64,000 nt of DNA from Clostridiaceae bacterium (GTDB lineage: Bacteria; Bacillota; Clostridia; DSM-8532). The stretch's first letter is position 1. Each line of letters starts with the position of its first letter. The position numbers and the translations under genes were made by a program. The DNA lies in the NCBI GenBank assembly GCA_012521615.1, contig JAAYMA010000073.1, positions 1 to 64,000 on the forward strand, in the 5' to 3' direction. The notes below the pieces were generated by a model. That model was not told where the DNA came from. It searched no databases and saw only the letters and a list, made by a program, of their open reading frames with translations. Of this stretch, positions 43,999 to 61,533 are shown in pieces.

Positions 43999-44131
43999 TT
44001 GACATTACTTATTGTAAAAGTATATAATGGACGTGTAAAATGTACACACGTGTTTATACATAAGTGACACATAATTTTATAACCTGTTGCCGGCAATATT
44101 TTATAATTTTCACAATATACACACGAGTGTA
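43999..44131 (+). promoter_or_regulatory. Promoter and LacI-type operator boxes of sugar ABC operon 1
   Basis: TTGACA (43999-44004) - 18 nt - TATAAT (44023-44028); ACACGTGT palindrome 44046-44053; TATACACACGAGTG 44116-44129. Confidence 0.75.
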
Positions 44132-44212
44132 CGTGTCTGGGAAAAATTCCCTAGTTTTTGTACTTATTTAATAGTACAAAATAATAATAAAAAAACAGGA
44201 GGGAAAGGGTAA

Positions 44213-45517
44213 ATGAAAAAGTTTTTATCATTGCTTCTCGTAGTAGTCATGAGCCTTTCAATTGTTGCCTGTAACAAAACTCCAGGGACTACTTCACCAT
44301 CGCCAACCGGACAGGGTGACAATAAGGAATCTGTGACTATCAAATTTGCAAATTACGCTATTTTGGAGACAGGTTATGAAGAATTCTGGAATAGTGTAAA
44401 AGAAGGTTTTGAGAAAAAATATGATCACATCACTATTGAATGGGTCACAGCTCCTTATGGCGAGATTGTAAATCAGGTTATAAATATGGCCGGCGGCGGC
44501 GACAAGGTTGATATCATGTTTGCTGAAATAGGCTGGACTCCAACTCTTGAAGATGCAGGTCTCGCAGTTCCGGTAGACACAATTCTTACTGAAGAATTCT
44601 TAAGCGACTTCTATCCATCCATCCTTGATGCAGCAAGCATTGATGGTAAAGTGTACGCTCTTCCTATGTACGTTTCTCCTTATGTGCTGTATTACAATAA
44701 AGATTTGTTTGAAAAAGCAGGACTGGATCCTAATTCGCCACCAAAGACCTATGACGAAATGTTAGAGATGGCTGAGAAACTCTCCAAGCTTACTACAGAA
44801 GACGGAAATAAAGTTTACGCTTTTGGTCAGACAACAGCATCAGTTCCCATTTCAGGTTCATCACTGACCAGCATGGTATACAACTTCGGTGGCAGAGTTC
44901 TTAATGAAGAAGGTAAACTCGATGTTGACACCAAAGAATTCAAGGATGCTATGGAAATGCTTAAGCTTCTCGATGAAAAAGGATATAATCCTCAAAATGC
45001 CAAGCTTAAGGATTTAAGAAACCTGTTCGCACTTGGACAGTTGGCAATGTACTACGATCAGTCCTGGGGCTTTAACGGCGTAAGCAGTATTAATCCGGAT
45101 GCTAAGAATTTCACAGCTTCTGCAGCGCCTCTGGCCGGTGGAAATGGTACAGGTGAGAGTGTAATTGAGGCTCATACACTTGTGCTCATGGATAACGGAG
45201 AAAAACAGAAAGAGGCAGTAAGACTTCTTGTTGAATATCTGGTAACACCAGAAGTTCTTAATGACTATTTGGCAGATATAACTCCTGCATACCCGGCAAG
45301 ACAGTCAATGAAGGATATAGAGGCAGTGGTTAACAGCAGTGTTCTGAAAGGTGCAGCAAATTCTCTGGATAAAGCCAGACCTACCCCGTTCATTCCTGCA
45401 ATGAATGACCTGAATCTTGAACTTACCACCCTTGCTCAAGCCATTACTGTTGGCGGCAAAGATATTGATACAGCTATAGAAGAGTTCAAGACTGCTGCAA
45501 ATGCACTGATTGACTAA
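44213..45517 (+). CDS. Sugar ABC transporter extracellular binding lipoprotein (family 1)
   Basis: Lipobox LSIVACNK; family 1 SBP fold; followed by two MalF/MalG-type permeases. Confidence 0.93.
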   Translation: MKKFLSLLLVVVMSLSIVACNKTPGTTSPSPTGQGDNKESVTIKFANYAILETGYEEFWNSVKEGFEKKYDHITIEWVTAPYGEIVNQVINMAGGGDKVDIMFAEIGWTPTLEDAGLAVPVDTILTEEFLSDFYPSILDAASIDGKVYALPMYVSPYVLYYNKDLFEKAGLDPNSPPKTYDEMLEMAEKLSKLTTEDGNKVYAFGQTTASVPISGSSLTSMVYNFGGRVLNEEGKLDVDTKEFKDAMEMLKLLDEKGYNPQNAKLKDLRNLFALGQLAMYYDQSWGFNGVSSINPDAKNFTASAAPLAGGNGTGESVIEAHTLVLMDNGEKQKEAVRLLVEYLVTPEVLNDYLADITPAYPARQSMKDIEAVVNSSVLKGAANSLDKARPTPFIPAMNDLNLELTTLAQAITVGGKDIDTAIEEFKTAANALID

Positions 45518-45598
45518 TTTTTCAGGGAGATGGCAAAAGTGAAATCATTCACTTTTGCTTTCTCCGAATTAAGTAATAAAAAAAGGCGGGAATATTTC

Positions 45599-46531
45599 AT
45601 GGTTTCAACTGCCAGAAAAATTAAAAAACCATTATTAAAGAGATCGACCGGGGACAAGTTATTTTCAGGAATACTTGTTCTGCCGGCGGTTGTAATAACT
45701 TTTATATTTATAATTGTTCCAATTATAGATTCGGTTATCAAGAGCTTTTTGGACTTCCGAGTTAAAAATATTATATCCAATCAACCCGGAACATGGAATA
45801 ATTTTGAAAACTATATAAAGTTATTCCAGAATCAAAAATTAACAGGCGCTGTAATCAATACTTTTTCCTTTGTAATTTTCGTTGTTGCTTTGCAGTTTAT
45901 CTTTGGTATGATACTGGCTCTCATATTGAACTCAAATATTAAAGGAGCAAGATTCTTAAGAAGTATTATGATGACACCCTGGGTTGTGCCAACTATTATT
46001 TCGGCTTTGATCTGGATGTGGATCTTTCAGCCGCAATACGGGCTTATGAAATATCTTGTACAGGTATTTACAGGTGGAACAGTTGCTGATTTCGCAATTC
46101 TGAACAATCCCTCAACTGCATTGTTGGGCATAGGAATTGCTGCTCTTTGGAAACAGGTTCCGCTTACCACTTTGCTGCTTTTGGCAGGCCTTCAGAATGT
46201 TCCCGATGATATGCTGGAGGCTGCAAGAATAGATGGAGCAGGCAAAGTAAGAACTTTTTTCAGTATTGTCTTACCTTATATGAAAAGTGTAATTAATGTT
46301 TCTATGACAATGGCTATTATAAGCAACTTCAAGCAATTTCCTTTAATTTGGACAATGACCGGTGGCGGACCTGATAATTCTACTACCACGCTTGCGATTT
46401 TAAGTTACCGGGAGGCGTTTGTTTCAAACAATATGGGCTCAGGTGCTGCTGTTACAACGGTATGGATGCTGCTTATGCTGGTAGTTGTGTTTGTATATAA
46501 CAAACTCATGGGTGAGACAGAGGTAGATTAA
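45599..46531 (+). CDS. Sugar ABC transporter permease (MalF/UgpA type)
   Basis: EAA motif EAARIDGAGKVRTFFSIVLPYM; ATG 45599 favoured (ORF open from 45530). Confidence 0.92.
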   Translation: MVSTARKIKKPLLKRSTGDKLFSGILVLPAVVITFIFIIVPIIDSVIKSFLDFRVKNIISNQPGTWNNFENYIKLFQNQKLTGAVINTFSFVIFVVALQFIFGMILALILNSNIKGARFLRSIMMTPWVVPTIISALIWMWIFQPQYGLMKYLVQVFTGGTVADFAILNNPSTALLGIGIAALWKQVPLTTLLLLAGLQNVPDDMLEAARIDGAGKVRTFFSIVLPYMKSVINVSMTMAIISNFKQFPLIWTMTGGGPDNSTTTLAILSYREAFVSNNMGSGAAVTTVWMLLMLVVVFVYNKLMGETEVD

Positions 46532-46543
46532 GGAGGAGTATTG

Positions 46544-47380
46544 ATGAAAAAGAACTTTTTGGGCAGCCTCCTGAAATACAGTATGCTTGTGATAATATTG
46601 CTGTTTTTGTTATTCCCGATTTACTGGGTGCTGTTAACATCCTTCAAAAGCAATATGGAAGCATACAAATTTCCACCTACATTTATTCCGGAGTCTCCCA
46701 CTATTTCAAGTTACATTAATCTATTCACAAAAAATAATGCATTTTTTGTTTATTACAAAAACAATTTCATAGTATCAGGTTTCACATCATTTTTCACCAC
46801 TATATTGGCAATTCTGGCCGGATATGCTCTGTCCAGATTTAAGTTCAGATGGAATGCCTGGATACTTGCGGTGTTACTGACTTCCCAGATGTTCCCGGTA
46901 GTAAGCCGAATGATTTCACTGTATGACCTGATGGGAGATATGGGGCTTATAAATACAATGCCGGGGTTAATTCTGGCCTTGATCGCGGATATGCTTCCTT
47001 TTGCTGTAATGCTTATGACCAGCTTTTTCCAAAGTATACCCCGTGCTGTTGAGGAAGCGGCCTATATTGATGGAGCATCGAGAATGGGGATACTCTATAG
47101 AATTGTAACACCTTTGGTCAAACCCGGAATGGTTGCAGTTGTACTGTATGCATTTTTGATGACATGGGATGATTATCTCCATGCTGCAACCCTTATCCAG
47201 AACGATGCATTAAGAACCTTATCAGTAGGTGTTGCACTCAGATACTTAGGAGAGCTTTCGTATGACTGGTCATTGATAAACACCATATCAATTATTGGCA
47301 CCATTCCTATGGTCCTGCTGTTCTTCTCCTTCCAGAAATATATGATCAAGGGATTGGTAGCAGGAGCCGTTAAAGGTTAA
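46544..47380 (+). CDS. Sugar ABC transporter permease (MalG/UgpE type)
   Basis: EAA motif EEAAYIDGASRMGILYRIVTPLV. Confidence 0.92.
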   Translation: MKKNFLGSLLKYSMLVIILLFLLFPIYWVLLTSFKSNMEAYKFPPTFIPESPTISSYINLFTKNNAFFVYYKNNFIVSGFTSFFTTILAILAGYALSRFKFRWNAWILAVLLTSQMFPVVSRMISLYDLMGDMGLINTMPGLILALIADMLPFAVMLMTSFFQSIPRAVEEAAYIDGASRMGILYRIVTPLVKPGMVAVVLYAFLMTWDDYLHAATLIQNDALRTLSVGVALRYLGELSYDWSLINTISIIGTIPMVLLFFSFQKYMIKGLVAGAVKG

Positions 47381-47408
47381 TAATATAACTGGCTTAAATT
47401 GTCAATAT

Positions 47409-47478
47409 GAAGTATATTAGGGGATCAGAATACAGAAGTATATTAGGGGATAAAAATAAGAGAAGTATATTAGGGGAT
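47409..47478 (+). repeat. Three direct copies of GAAGTATATTAGGGGAT
   Basis: Identical 17-mers at 47409-47425, 47435-47451, 47462-47478 (26-27 bp period). Confidence 0.95.
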
Positions 47479-47508
47479 AAAATATAGATATATAGAAAGG
47501 TAGTTAAC

Positions 47509-48363
47509 ATGCTAGTCAATAACAGAGAACAACTAATTAAAGCACGCAAAAATGGTTATGCAATACCGGCAATAAATACGCAAGGCGGGAATTACGATAT
47601 TATTTGGGCTGTCTGCAAGACAGCGGAAGAGATGCAGTCACCAATTATCCTGGCTCATTATATATCAACCGGGGCATATTCAGGACATGACTGGTTTGTT
47701 GAAGTTGCAAAATGGTGCGCCAATAAAGTTTCAGTTCCAGTTTCAATTCATCTTGATCATGGTGACAGCTTTGAAACTTGTATGAAAATGCTGAAGCTTG
47801 GATTTACTTCAATTATGATTGACGGATCCACTTTGCCTGTAAAAGAGAATGCAGCATTGACAAATAAAGTGGTGGAAGTATGTCGTCAATTCGATGTACC
47901 AGTGGAAGCAGAGATTGGCGAACTCTTGAGATTGGATAATACAGGCGAAGTCATGGAAAATAAGAATATAGCCGATCCTGAAGAGGTAAAAGAGTTTTTA
48001 AGACTTTGCCAACCTGATACTTTGGCTGTTGGTATAGGAAATGCGCATGGTTATTATAAAGGTGAGCCAGATATCAGGCTGGATGTCCTCAGAGAAGTAG
48101 CAGAATTTACCGATATCCCTCTTGTTTTGCATGGTTGCACCGGTATGTCAGATGATGTAATCAAAGAAGCTATAAAGATTGGCGTGTCAAAAATAAACTT
48201 TGGAACTGAAATCAGATATAAATATGTTGAAGCTTATAAAGAAGCCATTGATACTTGGGATCACCAGGGGCATTCCTGGAAAATTTCCGAGTATGCCTGC
48301 AATAAGCTTGGAGAAGTCATAAGAAAGATAATTAATCTCTCAGGTTCAGCGGGCAAGGCTTAA
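47509..48363 (+). CDS. Class II ketose-bisphosphate aldolase (fructose/tagatose-bisphosphate aldolase family)
   Basis: YAIPAINTQGGNYD, VSIHLDHGDSFETCMKML, FTSIMIDGSTLP, VPVEAEIGEL, LVLHGCTGMSDDVIKEAI. Confidence 0.9.
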   Translation: MLVNNREQLIKARKNGYAIPAINTQGGNYDIIWAVCKTAEEMQSPIILAHYISTGAYSGHDWFVEVAKWCANKVSVPVSIHLDHGDSFETCMKMLKLGFTSIMIDGSTLPVKENAALTNKVVEVCRQFDVPVEAEIGELLRLDNTGEVMENKNIADPEEVKEFLRLCQPDTLAVGIGNAHGYYKGEPDIRLDVLREVAEFTDIPLVLHGCTGMSDDVIKEAIKIGVSKINFGTEIRYKYVEAYKEAIDTWDHQGHSWKISEYACNKLGEVIRKIINLSGSAGKA

Positions 48364-48382
48364 TATCAAGAGGGGGATATTC

Positions 48383-49732
48383 ATGAATAAAAAACTGAAT
48401 GTTGGCTTCATTACAACATTATCAGGACGTTGGCCAAGGGAGCTTCCTCAAAAGAGACTTGAGGAATACGGAAAATGGCTTGGGGAAAACCTTAAAGATA
48501 TTATTCTGGTTAAGGAAAACGAGATAGTAGATTCTCCGGCAAGAGCCGGTGAAGTTATAAGCAAATTCAAACAGGCCGAAGTAGATATAGTAATAATGGT
48601 TTATGGAGCATTTACCGGTGATGATATACCTTGTCAGATAGCCGATGCTCTTAATGTACCCATGGTTTTATGGGCACCTTATGAGCCTCCGTTTGATAAG
48701 GATACGAGACTGTGGGCGAATGCTTTAGTGGCTGCAACAATGAACTCTGCTTCACTGAATAGACTGGGTCATAAAGTGTATGTGCTGTATGGCAGTAAAG
48801 AGGATGAAAGAATAGCAACCAGACTTAAAAAGCTTATAACTGCCTATAATGTAACAAAGAAATTAAAAGGCACACTTCTCGGATTACTGGGCTATCGCCC
48901 GACTGCGTTTTATAACTCAGCTTTTGATGAGGGCTTGATTCGGAGAACTTTTGGAATACGAATGGAGTCAACCGATTTAAAGGTTGTATTTGACAGAATG
49001 GGCCAGATTCCGGAAGACAGAGTTAAAGCAGATATGGATAAAATTTCGCGAATATTTGATGTAAATCGTCTCCCTGAAGGCCATCTTGAGAATCACTCAA
49101 GGCTATATTTTGCTTTACAGGAAGTCATAAAAGAACAGGGTTATGACTTTACCACCATTAAATGCTGGCCTGAAATGGGTCAATTAAAAACCACCCCCTG
49201 TGCTGTTATGTCCAGACTTGCTGATGATGCCGGCATGAATATTGTATGCGAAGGCGATGTGGATGCAGGTCTTGCACTGATTGTTCAAAACTATATAACA
49301 GGACTTCCAGGTTTTATAACCGATATGATTGATATAGATGAAGAGGAAAACACAATGTCGTTCTGGCATTGTGGTCAGGCACCCTTATCATTGATGAATC
49401 CCAATCATGAAGTTACAATAGATAATCACCCTCTTGCCGGACAGGGTACAGCTTTTTATGGATCATTAAAACCCGGCAAGGTGACAATAGGTCGTTACTG
49501 TAATATTAATGGAGTTTACAAACTCTTCCTTTTGAGGGGTGAAGCTATTGATTCACCGAGAAAGACAAAAGGTGTTATGGTCGATGTCAAAGTTAAAGCC
49601 CCTGTACGTGAAATTGTTGAAAACATTATAAAGGAACAGATACCCCATCATTACAGTATGGTATGGGAAGATATTGCTGATGAAATGATTGCAGTATCTG
49701 AACTTCTTGGAATAGAAGTTATTGAAATGTAG
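48383..49732 (+). CDS. L-fucose/L-arabinose isomerase-like protein
   Basis: Length and motifs (PMVLWAPYEPP..., GMNIVCEGDVDAGLALIVQNYITGLPGFITDM) resemble the FucI/AraA-like family. Confidence 0.75.
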   Translation: MNKKLNVGFITTLSGRWPRELPQKRLEEYGKWLGENLKDIILVKENEIVDSPARAGEVISKFKQAEVDIVIMVYGAFTGDDIPCQIADALNVPMVLWAPYEPPFDKDTRLWANALVAATMNSASLNRLGHKVYVLYGSKEDERIATRLKKLITAYNVTKKLKGTLLGLLGYRPTAFYNSAFDEGLIRRTFGIRMESTDLKVVFDRMGQIPEDRVKADMDKISRIFDVNRLPEGHLENHSRLYFALQEVIKEQGYDFTTIKCWPEMGQLKTTPCAVMSRLADDAGMNIVCEGDVDAGLALIVQNYITGLPGFITDMIDIDEEENTMSFWHCGQAPLSLMNPNHEVTIDNHPLAGQGTAFYGSLKPGKVTIGRYCNINGVYKLFLLRGEAIDSPRKTKGVMVDVKVKAPVREIVENIIKEQIPHHYSMVWEDIADEMIAVSELLGIEVIEM

Positions 49733-49773
49733 TTGTTAAAATTATGATAATCAAATTTGAAAGGAGTAATATA

Positions 49774-50826
49774 ATGAGTAAAAAAGGTCAGGTAACATAC
49801 AATGAAATTTACCAGCAGCCTGCTTCTTTTAAAGGTGTAAACGATACACTCCGTGATATTTATGAGGTGTTGGACAAGGTTTTTGCTGAGGAAAATCATT
49901 ATGATGAGCTTATTTTCACAGGTTGCGGAACCTCATTATACATTGCTCAGACTGCTGCTTATGTATTTTCTTCGTATACAGGTATTTCTGCAAAGGCAGT
50001 TCCATGTTCAGAGCTGTATTTCTCTCCTGAAACATATGTGAAGAATAAAAAAGTTCTGGTTCTGCCCATAACAAGAAAAAGCTATACCACTGAGGTTCGT
50101 ATGGCTATTGATAAAGTAAGGAGCTATCCGAATGTCAAATCACTTGCTATAACCTGTGATCCTGACAGTCAGAAATATAATGACTATTTTATTCTTTCAC
50201 CTGTTTCTGCTGAGGACAGTGTAATTATGACCCGTTCCTACTCCAGCATGGTGTACCTTGCTGTTATCATGTCCATGTATGTTGCAGGCAAAAAAGATGA
50301 AATAGAAGCTATGGCCGATTACGACAAAATTGCTGAAAAAATGCTTTCTGAAGTGGACGAGCTTGCAAAGAAAATAGTGGAGGAGAATCCTAACTTAAAT
50401 CTCTTCATAACATTAGGTCAGGGTGCTTTTTACGGTGTGGCCAACGAATGTATGAACAAGATTAAAGAGATGAGCATTTCCAATACAGAAGCTTATTACA
50501 GCCTTGAATACCGTCATGGACCCATGAGCCTGGTGGACGAAAATACTCTTGTTGTAATTTTGTCCGGAACAGATTCCATGGAATATGAATCAAAGCTTTT
50601 GACTCAGCTTAAAGGCTATGGTGCAGTTACAGTTGCAATAGGTCAAAATGTAAGTGAAAAAATGGAGGATGCCCATTATAAATTTGATCTCAATCATGGA
50701 TTGAGCGATATGCAATATGCACCCCTTGCTGTCTTTATAGGTCAGTTCCTCGGCTACCACTTAGCCCTTAAAAAAGATGTAGATGCTGACGCACCAAGAC
50801 ATTTGACCCAGGCTATTGTTTTATAA
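49774..50826 (+). CDS. SIS-domain sugar isomerase/deaminase (AgaS/GlmS-like)
   Basis: Two SIS domains; GCGTSLYIAQTAAYVFSSYTG, SRSYSSM-like TRSYSSMVY, SLEYRHGPMSLV. Confidence 0.85.
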   Translation: MSKKGQVTYNEIYQQPASFKGVNDTLRDIYEVLDKVFAEENHYDELIFTGCGTSLYIAQTAAYVFSSYTGISAKAVPCSELYFSPETYVKNKKVLVLPITRKSYTTEVRMAIDKVRSYPNVKSLAITCDPDSQKYNDYFILSPVSAEDSVIMTRSYSSMVYLAVIMSMYVAGKKDEIEAMADYDKIAEKMLSEVDELAKKIVEENPNLNLFITLGQGAFYGVANECMNKIKEMSISNTEAYYSLEYRHGPMSLVDENTLVVILSGTDSMEYESKLLTQLKGYGAVTVAIGQNVSEKMEDAHYKFDLNHGLSDMQYAPLAVFIGQFLGYHLALKKDVDADAPRHLTQAIVL

Positions 50827-50862
50827 ATTCAGACAATAATATAATTGTTTTAAACTTATTTA

Positions 50863-50962
50863 CATGATGTTCAGATCTTTTTGCAGCCCATCGCAGGAAG
50901 TTGTTAATGAAAGGCATACAACTTCAATGCTACAGACAAAGGTTAAAGATCTGAACATCATG
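50863..50962. repeat. 100-nt element bounded by an 18-bp perfect inverted repeat, with internal hairpin
   Basis: CATGATGTTCAGATCTTT (50863-50880) and AAAGATCTGAACATCATG (50945-50962); inner stem gaagttgt (50897-50904)/acaacttc (50918-50925). Confidence 0.9.
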
Positions 50963-51061
50963 GCTCATTTCAGGGCAATTATTTGAGACAGCTATCCGAA
51001 AAGCTGTCCGTTGGTCAAAATAGACGAAGCTTTGAGTAAATTTTTGACACTAAATATGATG

Positions 51062-51250
51062 TTGACAAGTATATTCATAGCATATATAATAAAAACTAAT
51101 TTGATAAACACGTGTTTATAGTCTGTTTGCACTAAGTGCACACTAAAAAATTGTGAATATCCCCTAATTATACTTCATTGCTCAAGTGAGCAATCAGAAA
51201 ATTTAAAATTTAAAGGTTTTTTTTAAAACAGCTATACACACGAGTGGATA
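51062..51250 (+). promoter_or_regulatory. Promoter and LacI-type operator boxes of sugar operon 2
   Basis: TTGACA (51062-51067) - 17 nt - TATAAT (51085-51090); 16-bp perfect palindrome ATAAACACGTGTTTAT (51104-51119); TATACACACGAGTG (51233-51246). Confidence 0.78.
51159..51176 (-). repeat. Near-identical inverted copy of the GAAGTATATTAGGGGAT repeat
   Basis: ATCCCCTAATTATACTTC versus reverse complement ATCCCCTAATATACTTC (one inserted base). Confidence 0.8.
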
Positions 51251-51320: not shown

Positions 51321-52130
51321 GTCGGACGAAGTTTAAAATCTGCATTCACTTCTTTCTTCGATCAGAGCCTCCTTAGTCTACAAACAAAGACTTGGAATAA
51401 TTTTCAGCACTACAAGGATATATTCACTAACTTTTTCGAAGGTGAATTCTGGCAAGCATTCCTGTTATCCAACAAGTTTGCTTTTACTGTTGTTATAATC
51501 CAACTATTCTTAAGTTTAGTACTTGCCATAGTTTTAAATGAAAATATTCGCGGAAAACGCGTTTTAAGATCAGTGTTGTTAATGCCATGGGTTATACCTA
51601 CAGCCGTTACTGCATTGCTTTGGATGTGGCTGTACCAGCCAGACTATGGTGTTCTGAATTATATCCTTAAGACTTTAGGATTGAAACAAAGTCTATGGCT
51701 GGGAAGTGTAGATACAGCGCTCACTTCTGTAATGATAGTTGCCATATGGAAACAAATGCCGTTTACAACTACTATGTTAATTGCCGGAATGCAGAGTATT
51801 TCTCATGATTATTATGAGGCATCGTCTATTGATGGTGCAAATAAACTGCAAAATTATTACTACATTACAATACCATTTTTGAAAAATGTAATTAAATCAA
51901 CTACACTTGTATCGATAATTGAAAACTTCAAAATGTTCCCATTGTTCTGGATTATGACACAGGGTGGGCCTATTAATGCTACCACAACTTTGGCGGTTCT
52001 GACATATCAGACTTCCTTCGTATCTATGGATATGGGAAAAGGAGCAACAATAGGTGTTCTCTGGATTATATTCCTTGTAGTTTTCTCCAGACTGTTTAAT
52101 TCTGTATTTAAAGAAGAAAGTTTTGTCTAA
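51321..52130 (+). pseudogene. MalF/UgpA-type sugar permease lacking its N-terminus (TM1 region)
   Basis: Open frame from 51321 after in-frame TAA 51318-51320 reads VGRSLKSAFTSFFDQSLLSLQTKTWNNFQHYKDIF..., aligning with the mid-N-terminal region of the permease at 45599 (DSVIKSFLDFRVKNIISNQPGTWNNFENYIKLF); no start codon or TM1. ORF track starts only at internal GTG 51573. Confidence 0.75.
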
Positions 52131-52142
52131 GGAGGTGTAATA

Positions 52143-53018
52143 ATGGAGAATATAGCGAAAAACAAGAAAAGTTTCAGTAACAGATTAATGCGTTCAATTC
52201 GTACAAACTCAATTTTTTATTTGATTATAATTGTAATGTTTGCATTCTTGTTATTTCCGATATATTGGATGATAGTAAGTTCATTCAAGGAGAATAATGT
52301 TCTTTTTACATTGCCTCCTGAATTTTTACCGGTAAATCCTACTTTGGTCAACTACAAATCAATCTTTGTTGACAATATATTCGTCACCTATTATAAAAAC
52401 AGTTTATTTGTATCTTTTGGAGCAACAGCTCTTACCATGTTTGTAGCGACATTTTGCGGATATGCTTTTTCCAGGTTTAACTATAAACTAAATGAGATAA
52501 TAATTACACTCATTCTTTCAGCCTCCATGTTCCCAGTTGTATCTCAGCTTATTTCCATCTACGGTATTTTTAAGAACAACGGGCTGCTTAATAATCATTA
52601 TGCATTGATGATGATCCTTACAAGTGTTTCTCTGCCATTCTGTATTTTAATGATCAGAAGCTATTTTAATGATATACCAAAAGAGCTCGATGAGGCTGCT
52701 AAAATTGATGGCTGTGGAAGAATGAGAACCATGTTCCAGATTATACTTCCATTAGTTAAACCAGGTCTTCTGGCTGTTGCCATATATACTTTCATGAGAG
52801 CATGGGACGATTATCAGTACGGATTGACACTGATTAACAGGGATGAAATGCGTACCTTAGGTCCAGGTATATCTCTCAGATTTTTAGGTGATGTTCAGTT
52901 TGACTGGGGTAAAACCTTGTCAGTTGCAGTAGCTGCTAGTTTGCCCGTACTTTTAATCTTTATGTTCCTCCAGAAATATATGGTTTCCGGTCTTACTGCT
53001 GGTGCTGTTAAAGGTTAA
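52143..53018 (+). CDS. Sugar ABC transporter permease (MalG/UgpE type)
   Basis: EAA motif DEAAKIDGCGRMRTMFQIILPLV; RBS aaggaggtg. Confidence 0.92.
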   Translation: MENIAKNKKSFSNRLMRSIRTNSIFYLIIIVMFAFLLFPIYWMIVSSFKENNVLFTLPPEFLPVNPTLVNYKSIFVDNIFVTYYKNSLFVSFGATALTMFVATFCGYAFSRFNYKLNEIIITLILSASMFPVVSQLISIYGIFKNNGLLNNHYALMMILTSVSLPFCILMIRSYFNDIPKELDEAAKIDGCGRMRTMFQIILPLVKPGLLAVAIYTFMRAWDDYQYGLTLINRDEMRTLGPGISLRFLGDVQFDWGKTLSVAVAASLPVLLIFMFLQKYMVSGLTAGAVKG

Positions 53019-53047
53019 TAAATACTGTGTATAAGGAGGAAGATAAT

Positions 53048-54448
53048 ATGCAAAAAAAGCCCAATATACTTTTTATACTATCGGATGATCATGGTGTATG
53101 GGCAAATGGTTGCTATGGAAATCATGAAATAATTACTCCTAATATTGATAATCTTGCTGAAAGGGGAACAAGGTTTGAAAACTTCTTCTGTGTTTCTCCT
53201 GTCTGTTCCCCTGCAAGAGCCTCCATATTAACAGGACGCATTCCTCCACAGCATGGTATCCATGATTATCTGTGTGATGGGAATGGTTATGAGAATCAAG
53301 AATCAATTGAGTTCCTGGAAGGTCAGCGAGGGTACACTGATTTTCTGAATGAGCATGGATATCAGTGTGCTTTAAGTGGTAAGTGGCATATGGGAGACAG
53401 CTTCCGTCCTCAAAAAGGCTTCAGTTTCTGGTATTGCCATCAGAAAGGCGGCGGACCTTATTATGGTGCACCTATGGTAAGGGACGGCAAAGCTGTGACA
53501 GAAGAGAGGTATATCACTGATGTCATTACTGATGAAGCATTGAGGTTTTTGGATATCCGCGATAAATCCAGACCTTTCTATCTCAGTGTACACTATACTG
53601 CTCCTCACAGTCCCTGGATTGACAATCATCCGGAAGAATATGTTAAACTATATGAGGACTGTGCTTTTGAAACCTGTCCGCAAGGCGAGCCCCATCCATG
53701 GGCGCTTACTGATATAATGCCCGGTTATACCAACCCACGTGAAAATTTGAAGGGATACTTTGCTGCTGTTACCGCTATGGACTACAATATCGGGCGATTG
53801 ATCAAACGGCTTGAGGATGAAGGAATATTAGAGGATACATTAATCATTTTCACAGGCGATAATGGAATGAACTGCGGGCATCATGGAATATGGGGTAAAG
53901 GAAACGGTACCTTTCCAATGAATATGTATGATTATTCTGTGAAAGTACCTTTTATAATCTCCCATCCCGGGGTATTACCCGAAGGTAAAGTTTGTGATGA
54001 GCTGTTCAGTGCTTATGATATCATGCCAACTCTGCTTGATTATTTAGGCATTGAAAATCCTGAAGCAGATAAGCTTCCCGGCCGGAGTTTCCTGCCTTTA
54101 CTGAAGGGGGAGACTATTGATGAAAAGCCGGTAATGGTATTTGATGAATATGGTCCTGTTCGTATGATAAGAACAAAGGAGTATAAATACATTCACCGTT
54201 ATGTTTATGGTCCTAACGAATTCTATGATTTAAAAACTGATCCTAACGAGGATAATAACCTTATAGATCATCCGGAATACCAGGACATAATAGGTGAAAT
54301 GAAACGGAAAATGGATACATGGTTTAACAAATACGTTGATCCTGAAATAGACGGAGCCCGTGAACCTGTAATGGGAGGCGGACAAAAGAATTTGGCAGGA
54401 CTGAGAGGTCCTATGTATGATGTATACCGTGAAAACAAATATGTTTGA
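53048..54448 (+). CDS. Type I (formylglycine-dependent, Cys-type) sulfatase
   Basis: PNILFILSDDHG; sulfatase signature CSPARASILTGR; GKWHMGD; no signal peptide. Confidence 0.93.
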   Translation: MQKKPNILFILSDDHGVWANGCYGNHEIITPNIDNLAERGTRFENFFCVSPVCSPARASILTGRIPPQHGIHDYLCDGNGYENQESIEFLEGQRGYTDFLNEHGYQCALSGKWHMGDSFRPQKGFSFWYCHQKGGGPYYGAPMVRDGKAVTEERYITDVITDEALRFLDIRDKSRPFYLSVHYTAPHSPWIDNHPEEYVKLYEDCAFETCPQGEPHPWALTDIMPGYTNPRENLKGYFAAVTAMDYNIGRLIKRLEDEGILEDTLIIFTGDNGMNCGHHGIWGKGNGTFPMNMYDYSVKVPFIISHPGVLPEGKVCDELFSAYDIMPTLLDYLGIENPEADKLPGRSFLPLLKGETIDEKPVMVFDEYGPVRMIRTKEYKYIHRYVYGPNEFYDLKTDPNEDNNLIDHPEYQDIIGEMKRKMDTWFNKYVDPEIDGAREPVMGGGQKNLAGLRGPMYDVYRENKYV

Positions 54449-54470
54449 TTAAGCTTAGAGCATATTGATT

Positions 54471-54504
54471 AACTGTTTATACTGAGATATCAGTGTAAAC
54501 AGTT
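54471..54504 (+). terminator. Long hairpin downstream of the sulfatase gene (terminator or processing element)
   Basis: aactgtttatactga-gata-tcagtgtaaacagtt, 15-bp stem with one G-U; weak T tract. Confidence 0.5.
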
Positions 54505-54613
54505 ATTTGATAAATATCTGTTTTACGACAATAATGAATACCTCAGTATTCATAATTTTTCTTATTAAATTGTTAAGATATTAACCTAAAGATAAGGGTA
54601 AGGAGTAAATAAA

Positions 54614-55858
54614 TTGAAACTGGATAAATTTTCTGCACGTAATTTGGAAGACCTTTACAGGTCGCAACTTCAGGAAATTATGGATGAATGGGCAGACCAT
54701 ACTGAAGATACAGAGTGTGGGGGGTATATCACTAACTTCGATGAGAACTGGAATGTAACCGGCACTCAAAAAAATATCTGGGCCCAGGCCCGTCAAACTT
54801 ACATGTTTTCAGTAATGTATAGTTATATAGATAAGAACGAAAAATGGCTGAAACTTGCCAAAACGGGCCGGGATTTCCTTGTTTCTCATGCCTATGCAGG
54901 TGAGGGCAGATGGTATTATGAACTTGACAGAACCGGAAAAAAAGTTTTAGAGGGTACAACGTCAATCTTTACCGATTTATTTGTACTTTCTGCTCTCTCA
55001 CAATATGCTTTTGCAAGTAATGATAAGAGTGATTTGGATTTGATAGAAAAAACCTTCTTAAGTGCCGAGAAGAATGTCCTTGACCCTTATTTTAAAGATA
55101 TAAAACCTCATAAATGGAAAGAGGGGATACTGAGGCACTCTGTATATATGATTTCTGTCAATGCGGCAGGGATTGCCGGAAATGTGCGGGGAAGGGACAA
55201 GGTCCTGCCTTTTATTAAAACCTGTATAGATAAAATATTAAATTTCTTCAATTGCAATACGAGTGGCTTTTTACTTGAAAGTATAAAGGAAGACGGAACT
55301 ATATGGGATACAGATGAAGGCAGGCTTGTTAATCCCGGACATATTTTTGAGGGAATGTGGTTTTGCATTGATGAGGCGAGAGTTGATAACAGAGAAAATG
55401 AAATATTGGATCAAGTTCTGAAAATTATCGACATTACATATAAAGCGGCAACTGATAAAATAAATGGGGGTATAATTCACCGTTTTGACTGTTTTGGAAG
55501 ATCTGACAACAGACTTTTAGCATCTACAGATCAGCCTAATGCAGATGATAAAGTTGACTGGGTGCACTGTGAATCATTGTATGCTTTAGCACTCGTTGCA
55601 GTGTTGACAAAAGATCAGCAAAGATTCAAGTCTTTTCTTGAATTGCATGATTTTTGTCAGAAATATTTCAGACCAGCAAATGGTGGTGACTGGTATCCCC
55701 TTCTATCAGCTGATGGAAAAGTGCTTAAAAAACATAAAGGAGCAAAGCACAGAGTTGCATTTCATGTACCAAGAGCACTGATGAAACTAACACTGTTGTT
55801 TCGGGAAAATGCTGACCAACTTGTAGCAGCGACTAACAATACAGATATTGGGAAATAG
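54614..55858 (+). CDS. AGE-family (N-acylglucosamine 2-epimerase-like) epimerase/isomerase
   Basis: TECGGYITNFDENWNVTGTQKNIWAQARQTYMFSVMY; LVNPGHIFEGMWFC; TTG start. Confidence 0.82.
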   Translation: MKLDKFSARNLEDLYRSQLQEIMDEWADHTEDTECGGYITNFDENWNVTGTQKNIWAQARQTYMFSVMYSYIDKNEKWLKLAKTGRDFLVSHAYAGEGRWYYELDRTGKKVLEGTTSIFTDLFVLSALSQYAFASNDKSDLDLIEKTFLSAEKNVLDPYFKDIKPHKWKEGILRHSVYMISVNAAGIAGNVRGRDKVLPFIKTCIDKILNFFNCNTSGFLLESIKEDGTIWDTDEGRLVNPGHIFEGMWFCIDEARVDNRENEILDQVLKIIDITYKAATDKINGGIIHRFDCFGRSDNRLLASTDQPNADDKVDWVHCESLYALALVAVLTKDQQRFKSFLELHDFCQKYFRPANGGDWYPLLSADGKVLKKHKGAKHRVAFHVPRALMKLTLLFRENADQLVAATNNTDIGK

Positions 55859-55939
55859 CATACTGCAAATAAAAAATTTGCCATTGAACTAATATAGCAT
55901 ATACAATATTTATGCATGATTGTTCATATAAAAGGAGAT

Positions 55940-56965
55940 ATGAAGATGGGCAACAGACAACAAAGCTTTAAAAGGGTGACTCGTGCTGATGTAGCGAGAT
56001 ATGCCGGTGTAAGCGAGACAATAGTATCATATGTAATAAATAATAACAGGTATGTCAGTAAAGAAAAGAGAAAGCGTGTAGAAGAAGCTATAAAGGCACT
56101 CAATTATCGACCTAATTACATAGCCCGCGCATTAAAAGGCAAAAACAGCAACCACATAATATTCATAGCAGATCATATAACTAACGAGCACTTTAGCAAG
56201 TTAATATGCGAAATGGATAAATATGCATACAAGGAAGGCTATCTGATCTCACTTTGCCAAAATCGCAATACTGAGGAATTTGTTTCTCAGATAATAAGCA
56301 GGCAGTATGACGGAATAATCATAAGCTCGATCAGTTTTCCGGAATCCTATATACGTCAGTTCATAAGTGCAAATATACCTGTTGTAGTTCTTTTGAACAG
56401 GCTTTATGACAATATTGAAGGAGCAGGTTTAATTTATACCGGATTATATGAAGGAGCAAAAAAATGCGTCGAGCATTTAGTTAATAAGGGAAGAAAAAAT
56501 ATTCTGTATCTGGACAGAATAAGTTCACATGGAAATTTCAGTACTGAATCCGATCTGAGGCTCCGTGGATTTAAGGATCAGATGAAGGAAAGTAATCTTC
56601 CGGTTTCTGAAGAAAATATAATTACCGGATGTACCAGTGAAGACGAAGTAATTGCAAAAATCAAGAAGCGGTTTAAAGATGGATTTCCGATAGATGCGAT
56701 TTTTGGTCGTAATGACAGAATTGCATGTATAGGAATGGAAGCAGTAAAACAATTAGGTTTAAGAATTCCAGAAGATGTTTCTGTAGTCGGTTTTGACAAC
56801 TCAAGCATAAGTATGTATACCAGTCCGGCTCTTACAACTGTTGAAATACCCAGGGCCGATATTGGAAAAGCAGCTGTAGAAATGCTGCATCACATGATTA
56901 ATGAAAAATCAGTGCCCGATAAAATATATTTCGAAACCAAATTAATTGAAAGGGAGAGTTCATAG
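55940..56965 (+). CDS. LacI family transcriptional regulator
   Basis: HTH VTRADVARYAGVSETIVSYVINNNRYVSKEKRKRVEEAIKALNYRPN; RBS aaaggag. Confidence 0.93.
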   Translation: MKMGNRQQSFKRVTRADVARYAGVSETIVSYVINNNRYVSKEKRKRVEEAIKALNYRPNYIARALKGKNSNHIIFIADHITNEHFSKLICEMDKYAYKEGYLISLCQNRNTEEFVSQIISRQYDGIIISSISFPESYIRQFISANIPVVVLLNRLYDNIEGAGLIYTGLYEGAKKCVEHLVNKGRKNILYLDRISSHGNFSTESDLRLRGFKDQMKESNLPVSEENIITGCTSEDEVIAKIKKRFKDGFPIDAIFGRNDRIACIGMEAVKQLGLRIPEDVSVVGFDNSSISMYTSPALTTVEIPRADIGKAAVEMLHHMINEKSVPDKIYFETKLIERESS

Positions 56966-57010: not shown

Positions 57011-58168
57011 TTATTTAGTCTTCGTATAAACCACTTTTCCATTGACAATGGTTGTTTCCACATTGAGTTCGTTATCAAGAATAACCAGATCGGCATCTTT
57101 ACCTTCTTCAATAGTCCCTTTCCTGTCATCTATTTTCATTAAAACCGCAGGATTGGTTGTCAGAAGCGGGATGATCTCTTCAAGAGGTCTCCCTGTAAAT
57201 TTAAGAATGTTTTTAAGGGCTGTGTTAGTTGTAAGAGTACTGCCTGCCCTTGTACCGTCGCTGATAAGTCTGGCATCACCGTCAGTAACTCTTACCTTAT
57301 TTACTCCAAGGATATAATCTCCATCAGGCAGACCGGTGGCCATTATACTGTCTGTGACAGCAACTACTCTGTCAAGGCCTTTAGTTTTTATCAGAAGTCT
57401 GACCACTGCCGGATGAAGATGTCTTCCGTCGCAGATAGCCTCGCAATAAATATCACTTTCAAGAGCTGCACCTGAAATAGCAGGATGATGCTGATGCATC
57501 AGCTTCATTCCGTTAAAAGTATGTGTAACCGAAGTAGCACCATTTTTAATGCTTTCCATTGTGGTTTCATAATCTGCACCTGAGTGTCCAATGGAAACTA
57601 CAACTCCTGTTTTTACCGCTTCCCTTATAAGCTCCATTCCACCTTCTATTTCAGGGGCAATAGTAATGTAGGTAATTTTGCCCTCCGAAGCATCATAATA
57701 TTTCTTAAAAAGGTCTATGTCAGCCTTTTTGAGCAGATGTTCAGCCATTGATCCTCTGTACTCAGAATCAAGGAAAGGCCCTTCCAGATGTATACCGATA
57801 AGGTTTGCGCCATCTGTATCAATATCCATGGCCTTCTTTATCTGATCAATGCACCAGAGAGTATTTTCCTCTGTATCAGTAACTATTGATGCCTGATAGC
57901 TTGTGGTACCCTGGGAAGCAAAAAATTTGGCGAGCTTGCAATAATCATCAGTTGTGGCATGATTAACATCAATATTATCGGCGCCATGAGTGTGAATATC
58001 TATAAAGCCGGGAATTACCTTCTTACCCATTGCATCTATTTCAGGGTATTTCTCTTTGTTGTCAGAATCATTGCTGATGGCAGCAATTTTTCCATCCTTC
58101 ACCGTTATATTTCTTTTAACAAAATCACCGCCAATGAAAGCTTCGGCATTTTTTATAAACAAGTTCAT
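57011..58168 (-). CDS. nagA: N-acetylglucosamine-6-phosphate deacetylase
   Basis: GFIDIHTHGADNIDVNHA, GIHLEGPFLD, VVSIGHSGADYETT, THTFNGM, AVTDSIMATGLPDGDY; start MNLFIKNAEAF after aaggagttgat. Confidence 0.93.
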   Translation of the reverse strand: MNLFIKNAEAFIGGDFVKRNITVKDGKIAAISNDSDNKEKYPEIDAMGKKVIPGFIDIHTHGADNIDVNHATTDDYCKLAKFFASQGTTSYQASIVTDTEENTLWCIDQIKKAMDIDTDGANLIGIHLEGPFLDSEYRGSMAEHLLKKADIDLFKKYYDASEGKITYITIAPEIEGGMELIREAVKTGVVVSIGHSGADYETTMESIKNGATSVTHTFNGMKLMHQHHPAISGAALESDIYCEAICDGRHLHPAVVRLLIKTKGLDRVVAVTDSIMATGLPDGDYILGVNKVRVTDGDARLISDGTRAGSTLTTNTALKNILKFTGRPLEEIIPLLTTNPAVLMKIDDRKGTIEEGKDADLVILDNELNVETTIVNGKVVYTKTK

Positions 58169-58351
58169 AAATATCAACTCCTTAAAATATAATCTACCCC
58201 TTGAAAAAGGAAAATACCATGGATTCATTATTTTATTAGAATTGTTGTCTTAAATCTGATATAATTATTCTCATTATTATGATTAAAATATAAAACATAA
58301 TACAACTTAATTATACAAAAATAAACAGTAAATTTGATAAAAAATAGGGAT

Positions 58352-60516: not shown

Positions 60517-61533
60517 TTATTTGCGGGCTGCACAGCTTTCACGCTGGATTATTTTGAATGGAACCTCTAATTTTACTGGTAATTTATGTCCGCCTTTTAT
60601 TCGGTCGAGTAAAATTTTGAATGCAAATTTACCCATGTCGGTCTTGGGGATATCAATACTTGTAAGCATGGGTGAAACGAATTGGCACATTTCAATATTA
60701 TCTATGCTGATAACCGAAATATCATCCGGAACTTTTATGTTGGCTTCACTTAAAGCTTTTAATACTCCTATAGCTGTAATATCATTTGCACAAAAAACAG
60801 CTGTAGGAGTATCTGATGATATTTTTAAAAGCTTTTCCACAGCTTCATATCCTCCTTTAACAGACAAAGGCGCATCAATGATAAAGTTGCGTTCAACTGG
60901 TATTTTTAATTCAACCAATGCATCGAAATAACCACGATAACGGGCTTCATTTGACATTTCACCAATATATCCTATATTGGAGTGACCCAAAGAATGCAAA
61001 CGTTTTACTGCTGTTTTTGCGGCAGTATATCCATCGCATATTATTTGGTCGCATTCATCGCTGACTTTATTTAGACCTGTATAAACAATATTCTTAAATT
61101 TCTTGCTCAAATATGTATAAAGGGGTTTGGAGTATCTGCCAATAAGTATTATTCCATCGGGTTCTGAAAGAATAAGATCATCGTAGATTCCATCGCTATT
61201 CATGCTCTGGGCCGAAAATACTCCAGTAACAGTACATGAATTTTTAATAGCTTCCTGCTCGATTGCCTGAAATATTTGAGAAAAAAATGGATCGGATAAA
61301 CCGTCGGTGGTCCTTGCAAAAACACAGGCTATATTATGTGTTTTCATTTTTGTGTTCTTTATACCTTTTCTTAGTTTTTGTGCGGCAGTGTTTGGTATAT
61401 AATTTGTTTCCCGGACAAGCTTCCAAATTTTTTCCCTTGTTTTGGCGCTTGCTGAATTTTCATCACCATTAATAACCCGTGAAACAGTTGATACTGATAC
61501 ATTAGCCAGTTTAGCAAGTTCTTTTAGCGTCAA
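60517..61533 (-). CDS. LacI family transcriptional regulator
   Basis: MTLKELAKLANVSVSTVSRVINGDENSASAKTREKIWKLVRETNYIPNTAAQKLRKG. Confidence 0.95.
   Translation of the reverse strand: MTLKELAKLANVSVSTVSRVINGDENSASAKTREKIWKLVRETNYIPNTAAQKLRKGIKNTKMKTHNIACVFARTTDGLSDPFFSQIFQAIEQEAIKNSCTVTGVFSAQSMNSDGIYDDLILSEPDGIILIGRYSKPLYTYLSKKFKNIVYTGLNKVSDECDQIICDGYTAAKTAVKRLHSLGHSNIGYIGEMSNEARYRGYFDALVELKIPVERNFIIDAPLSVKGGYEAVEKLLKISSDTPTAVFCANDITAIGVLKALSEANIKVPDDISVISIDNIEMCQFVSPMLTSIDIPKTDMGKFAFKILLDRIKGGHKLPVKLEVPFKIIQRESCAARK

Follow-up and report, generated by a model that had tools for sequence, protein, structure and literature searches.

A predicted local LacI-family regulon with paired 18-bp operators at two sugar operons of a Clostridiaceae bacterium

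Results

Gene content of the two operons

The window, by which we mean the whole stretch of 64,000 nucleotides that was analysed, contains two sugar operons with the following genes.

44213–50826, + strand: operon 1 (ABC binding protein, two permeases, aldolase, fucose-isomerase-fold enzyme, SIS-domain enzyme)
44213–45517, + strand: ABC sugar-binding protein (SBP_bac_1; Pfam)
45530–46531, + strand: ABC permease (Pfam PF00528)
46541–47380, + strand: ABC permease (Pfam PF00528)
47509–48363, + strand: class II ketose-bisphosphate aldolase (NCBIfam TIGR00167 above cut-off; Pfam)
48383–49732, + strand: fucose-isomerase-fold isomerase, distant from the sulfoquinovose isomerase SftI (238 bits, cut-off 700)
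49744–50826, + strand: SIS-domain amino-sugar phosphate deaminase/isomerase, GlmD/AgaS-like (profile matches, Pfam, nearest relatives)
51321–56965, + strand: operon 2 (two permeases, sulfatase, N-acylglucosamine 2-epimerase family protein, LacI-family regulator)
51321–52130, + strand: ABC permease frame, probably truncated (no ATG, GTG or TTG start before 51573; first membrane helix missing)
52143–53018, + strand: ABC permease (Pfam PF00528)
53027–54448, + strand: type I sulfatase (CSPAR active-site motif; nearest solved relative GlcNAc-6-sulfatase 5g2v)
54614–55858, + strand: N-acylglucosamine 2-epimerase family protein (profile matches, Pfam)
55946–56965, + strand: LacI-family regulator, proposed binder of all four operators (last gene of operon 2; ORF readable from 55916)

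Besides 5g2v, the nearest solved relatives of the sulfatase include the mucin-desulfating sulfatase 7p24. For the SIS protein, the nearest relatives are glucosamine-6-phosphate deaminase-like proteins, with matches to AgaS-type enzymes too; no solved relative of the fucose-isomerase-fold enzyme (48383–49732) was found by sequence. Operon 2 has no binding-protein gene. Compared to its homologs, the permease frame at 51321–52130 lacks roughly 40–60 N-terminal residues, and no trace of the missing helix was seen upstream of it in any forward frame; the defect is either a deletion that fused the leader to the gene or an assembly fault.

Promoters and operators

Each operon is preceded by a promoter and by two copies of a palindromic sequence located downstream of the -10 box.

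43999–44028, + strand: operon 1 promoter (TTGACA-18-TATAAT; 12/12 consensus match; position conserved in the sister species)
44041–44058, + strand: operon 1 proximal operator, TGTACACACGTGTTTATA (centre 44049.5; block conserved in the sister species G005)
44116–44133, + strand: operon 1 distal operator, TATACACACGAGTGTACG (centre 44124.5; block conserved in G005)
51062–51090, + strand: operon 2 promoter (TTGACA-17-TATAAT; 12/12 consensus match)
51103–51120, + strand: operon 2 proximal operator, GATAAACACGTGTTTATA (centre 51111.5)
51233–51250, + strand: operon 2 distal operator, TATACACACGAGTGGATA (centre 51241.5)

A previous sequence-only reading of this DNA had proposed TTGACA/TATAAT boxes at both promoters, and each was found to match the consensus at all 12 positions. 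No other 12/12 match to this sigma-A-type consensus occurs in the stretch that was scanned. The same reading had described a proximal palindrome (ACACGTGT at 44046–44053 and ATAAACACGTGTTTAT at 51104–51119) and, further downstream, a 14-mer shared by both promoters (TATACACACGAGTG at 44116–44129 and 51233–51246), all of which are present at these positions. The register that it gave for the palindrome centre, 21.5 bp beyond the end of the -10 box, is exact at both promoters and also in the sister species, and its approximate spacings of 75 and 130 bp between proximal and distal boxes agree with the centre-to-centre distances of 75 bp in operon 1 and 130 bp in operon 2. The division into two box types did not hold, however: when the central CG is used to align them, the proximal palindromes and the 14-mer stretches prove to be one motif, and each promoter thus has two copies of one operator. 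This operator is an even-length, CG-centred palindrome of 18 bp with the consensus TATACAC[A/T]CG[A/T]GTGTATA, present in four copies, two per promoter.

The four window sites are the only matches to TATAMACACGWGTKTATA with at most two mismatches in the whole 2.2-Mb genome. We also trained an operator matrix on six sites from the window and the sister species; the four window sites score 22.3–26.5 bits, the six training sites together span 22.3–27.0 bits, and 3 Mb of simulated sequence of the same composition contained no match of at least 18 bits. Within the window, only the four operators score above 10.3 bits, and the gene for NagA at 57011–58228 (- strand) has no operator in this genome. 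The genome-wide scan suggested by the sequence-only reading thus did not place the boxes at random, its four best matches being those at the two promoters. With an earlier, looser pattern, the total count was not above that of the reversed control, and the window sites were among the best. Two other sites were set aside as chance matches: one of 10.5 bits inside a dehydrogenase-like gene (C41:15240), and one of 14.9 bits (C104:26216) that precedes a Crp/Fnr-type gene by about 360 bp and occurs at about the rate predicted by the null.

A CG-centred palindrome is what most LacI-family proteins typically recognise (PMC4052901), so in principle the boxes could be chance palindromes or belong to a global regulator such as CcpA. 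Close matches are confined to these promoters and to genomes that have this LacI, and we reject such an origin, which on this restriction of the sites is extremely improbable.

The LacI-family regulator

The gene for the regulator was correctly placed at the end of operon 2 by the sequence-only reading, but rather than at 55940 it more likely starts at the ATG at 55946, which is well spaced after a GGAG sequence. The protein has an N-terminal helix-turn-helix domain (PF00356, 61.7 bits) and a sensor domain of the periplasmic-binding-protein-like type (PF13377, 123 bits), both above the cut-off. Its recognition helix, VSETIVSYV, conforms to the pattern V[S/T][E/P]T[I/V]VSYV that is common to all relatives compared. 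The alignment to E. coli LacI ends at residue 347 of 349, corresponding to LacI residue 327 of 360, and the protein has no tetramerisation tail.

Seven LacI genes are present in the genome, and at the five loci outside the window no site of at least 12 bits was identified in the matrix scan. The remaining gene (60517–61533, - strand) is located 3.6 kb from the first and encodes a protein with a recognition helix of a different class (VSVSTVSRV). Homologs of this protein, 43–46% identical, adjoin the same cluster in G137 and in two Blautia genomes, and it may be a partner regulator. That this second protein binds or shares the operators is an alternative suggested by its proximity and by these neighboring homologs, but it is one to which we assign a very low probability: its helix differs in class, there is no operator at its own locus, and most operator loci (L016, L020, L023, L028 and L053–L060 among them) have a close homolog of the 55946 protein, but nothing that resembles the 60517 protein more than family members do in general.

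The sister species

A homolog with 74% identity to the window LacI is present in the sister species G005, together with an orthologous operon 1, while operon 2 is absent. Only these two of the 32 genomes in the family contain the LacI protein (E ≤ 1e-50), and the same two are the only ones with TATACACACGAGTG, which occurs once in G005. The G005 leader has diverged outside the -35 and -10 boxes and two blocks, ATGTACACACGTGTTTATACA and TATACACACGAGTGTA. At 65 bp, the operator spacing in G005 is ten bp shorter than that in operon 1 of the window; the distance from the -10 box to the palindrome centre is once more 21.5 bp. A half-good operator, TTAGTGACACGAGTGTATAT (L003:16202, 14.4 bits), is located about 106 bp before lacI in G005 and is possibly a site in the promoter of that gene itself.

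Operator and regulator in other genomes

The exact 18-mer TATACACACGAGTGTATA was found on 15 contigs among 84,980 species genomes, of which 14 carry homologous gene clusters from Clostridia and Spirochaetales; the sole unrelated contig is L026 (Xanthomarina). In the 8 kb fetched per site, a homolog of the window LacI with 40–56% identity was identified in 12 of the 15 contigs. On L018, the sulfatase gene of the cluster comes right after the site and the record ends before lacI would come; L030 corresponds to operon 1 of G005. Leaving out this contig and L021 (G137), which were known from the protein search, 12 of the 13 further matches are located at a homologous cluster. When up to two mismatches were allowed, the operator was found in a single place in each of those 13 genomes, or in two places on the same contig in G415, and in G000, G005 and G137 it occurs, with at most one mismatch, nowhere but at this cluster.

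A search of genome contigs with LacI alone returned no relative, whereas the operator pattern did find relatives. Relatives also came from protein searches that covered the class (391 genomes), the family of G415 (397) and the order of G408 (294). For the reverse comparison, from gene to operator, the matrix was derived from the window and G005 alone and G415 was set aside. Each of the eight clostridial relatives, namely G137 and seven members of the G415 family, carries one or more sites of at least 20.6 bits in the cluster; these sites, often two or three of them, lie before lacI, before the gene for the binding protein or before that for the isomerase. Two of the three spirochaetes have sites of 22.5–23.0 bits, while the third has only a weak site of 14.9 bits, which is not CG-centred, just before the sulfatase gene. 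In G137 and several other relatives, the operator precedes lacI itself. Most relatives have one site per promoter. One spirochaete has a pair of strong operators that overlap just before the sulfatase gene, their centres being separated by 16 bp (L071:8144 and 8160). The fucose-isomerase-fold enzyme is kept in the regulon in the family of G415, with 53–66% identity, and has its own operator in several of these genomes.

The operators are thus confined to the adjacent gene set and conserved along with the regulator, as expected of a local regulon. The proposal of the sequence-only reading that one local LacI regulon covers both operons is backed by the genome restriction, by the sister species and by the linkage across genomes, and on this sequence evidence the local LacI repressor almost certainly controls both operons.

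Predicted substrate

Further functions come with the gene clusters of the relatives: NagA, TauE-type sulfite exporters, and a PTS IIC-IID protein that has an operator of its own. The PTS protein is encoded in G633 (L055:11691–13316), with an operator of 24.5 bits at L055:13347, and two TauE-type exporters are encoded near the cluster in G777 (L058:16327–18035). Because of the sulfatase, the SIS protein and these added genes, the predicted substrates, as judged from family membership, are sulfated N-acetylamino sugars, with GlcNAc-6-sulfate as the first candidate.

Discussion

Proposed mechanism

We consider it highly probable that the whole is explained by a local, dimeric LacI-family protein acting on paired 18-bp operators at both promoters. 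The dimer encoded at the end of operon 2 would bind the consensus operator twice at each promoter. With the transcription start taken to be about 7 bases beyond the -10 box, the proximal operator would lie about 15 bp past the start, and its position suggests that the bound protein blocks initiation or early elongation. A block of transcription is the usual effect of LacI-family proteins at such a position, and we infer repression rather than activation here. The distal copy would strengthen the repression through higher local occupancy, through road-blocking, or possibly through a GalR-like loop. The repressor would be released by a sugar or sugar phosphate of the pathway for sulfated N-acetylamino sugars. 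The lacI gene is probably co-transcribed with operon 2, and since it follows that operon and has no operator of its own, it is likely to be self-regulated via the operators of operon 2.

In the E. coli lac operon, the main operator is located just past the transcription start and is accompanied by an auxiliary operator. The promoters in the window likewise have an operator just past the start plus a second one, but the window protein has no tetramerisation tail, and the operator and the gene set differ. In the gal operon of E. coli, the dimeric LacI-family protein GalR acts on two operators about a hundred bp apart; the regulator of the window is proposed to work likewise, as a dimer with two operators, although here both are downstream of the -10 box. 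In a loop of the GalR type, dimers together with HU bridge two operators that are in helical phase; the window has the two operators, and their phasing is weak.

Looping between the proximal and distal boxes had also been put forward in the sequence-only reading. A loop held by a LacI-type tetramer can be dismissed because the tetramerisation tail is absent; another route is possible, and a loop, if any, would have to be GalR-like, with two dimers joined across 65–130 bp. Such a loop would add to the explanation given above rather than replace it. It is consistent with the operator pairs at all three promoters of the genus (75, 130 and 65 bp), with the difference between the orthologous promoters of exactly 10 bp, about one helical turn, and with a weak clustering of phases at 10.5 bp per turn when two more pairs (149 and 452 bp) are included. 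This clustering, however, is a post hoc observation on five spacings that are not independent, and it disappears for the full set of five when a turn is taken as 10.6 bp; the single site per promoter in most relatives and the absence of the tail also argue against a loop, which we consider doubtful.

Relation to known systems

According to Ravcheev et al. (2014; PMC4052901), local LacI-family sugar regulons have an even palindrome with a central CG and sites in the promoter and leader, and they control the adjacent sugar cluster, with self-regulation being common. The form of the palindrome, the placement of the sites and the predicted control of an adjacent cluster all match in the window; the combination of sulfatase and amino-sugar genes is not mentioned in the main text of their paper, where “sulfat” has no occurrences. 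The circuit is a normal LacI-family local regulon of an ordinary kind of control, and is well supported as such.

Like the Aga/Nag amino-sugar pathways (PMC5583593), the locus has an SIS-type deaminase/isomerase, a class II aldolase and a NagA-type deacetylase nearby, and the relative G633 has a PTS IIC-IID protein with its own operator. Unlike in those pathways, a sulfatase and an ABC transporter are under the same operator here. Among the gut genomes in that study, GlcNAc-6-sulfatases occur in Bacteroidetes and Akkermansia only. No published description of the regulon was found in a search whose reach excluded most subscription journals and RegPrecise.

The most notable feature is that the operator is near-identical across two phyla, at 40–50% identity between the proteins. 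A tentative and rather unlikely extension is that these proteins form an undescribed subfamily of regulators, with one near-invariant operator, for the catabolism of sulfated N-acetylamino sugars in Clostridia and Spirochaetales; the unit of regulator, operator, transporter and sulfatase may then have crossed phyla, and in the genus of the window the paired operators would act together without a LacI-type tetramer. What had been a guess from two promoters is now a regulon that can be tested and whose defined operator extends across phyla; with this operator, genes for the use of sulfated amino sugars, of the mucin or glycosaminoglycan type, can be sought in Lachnospiraceae and spirochaetes.
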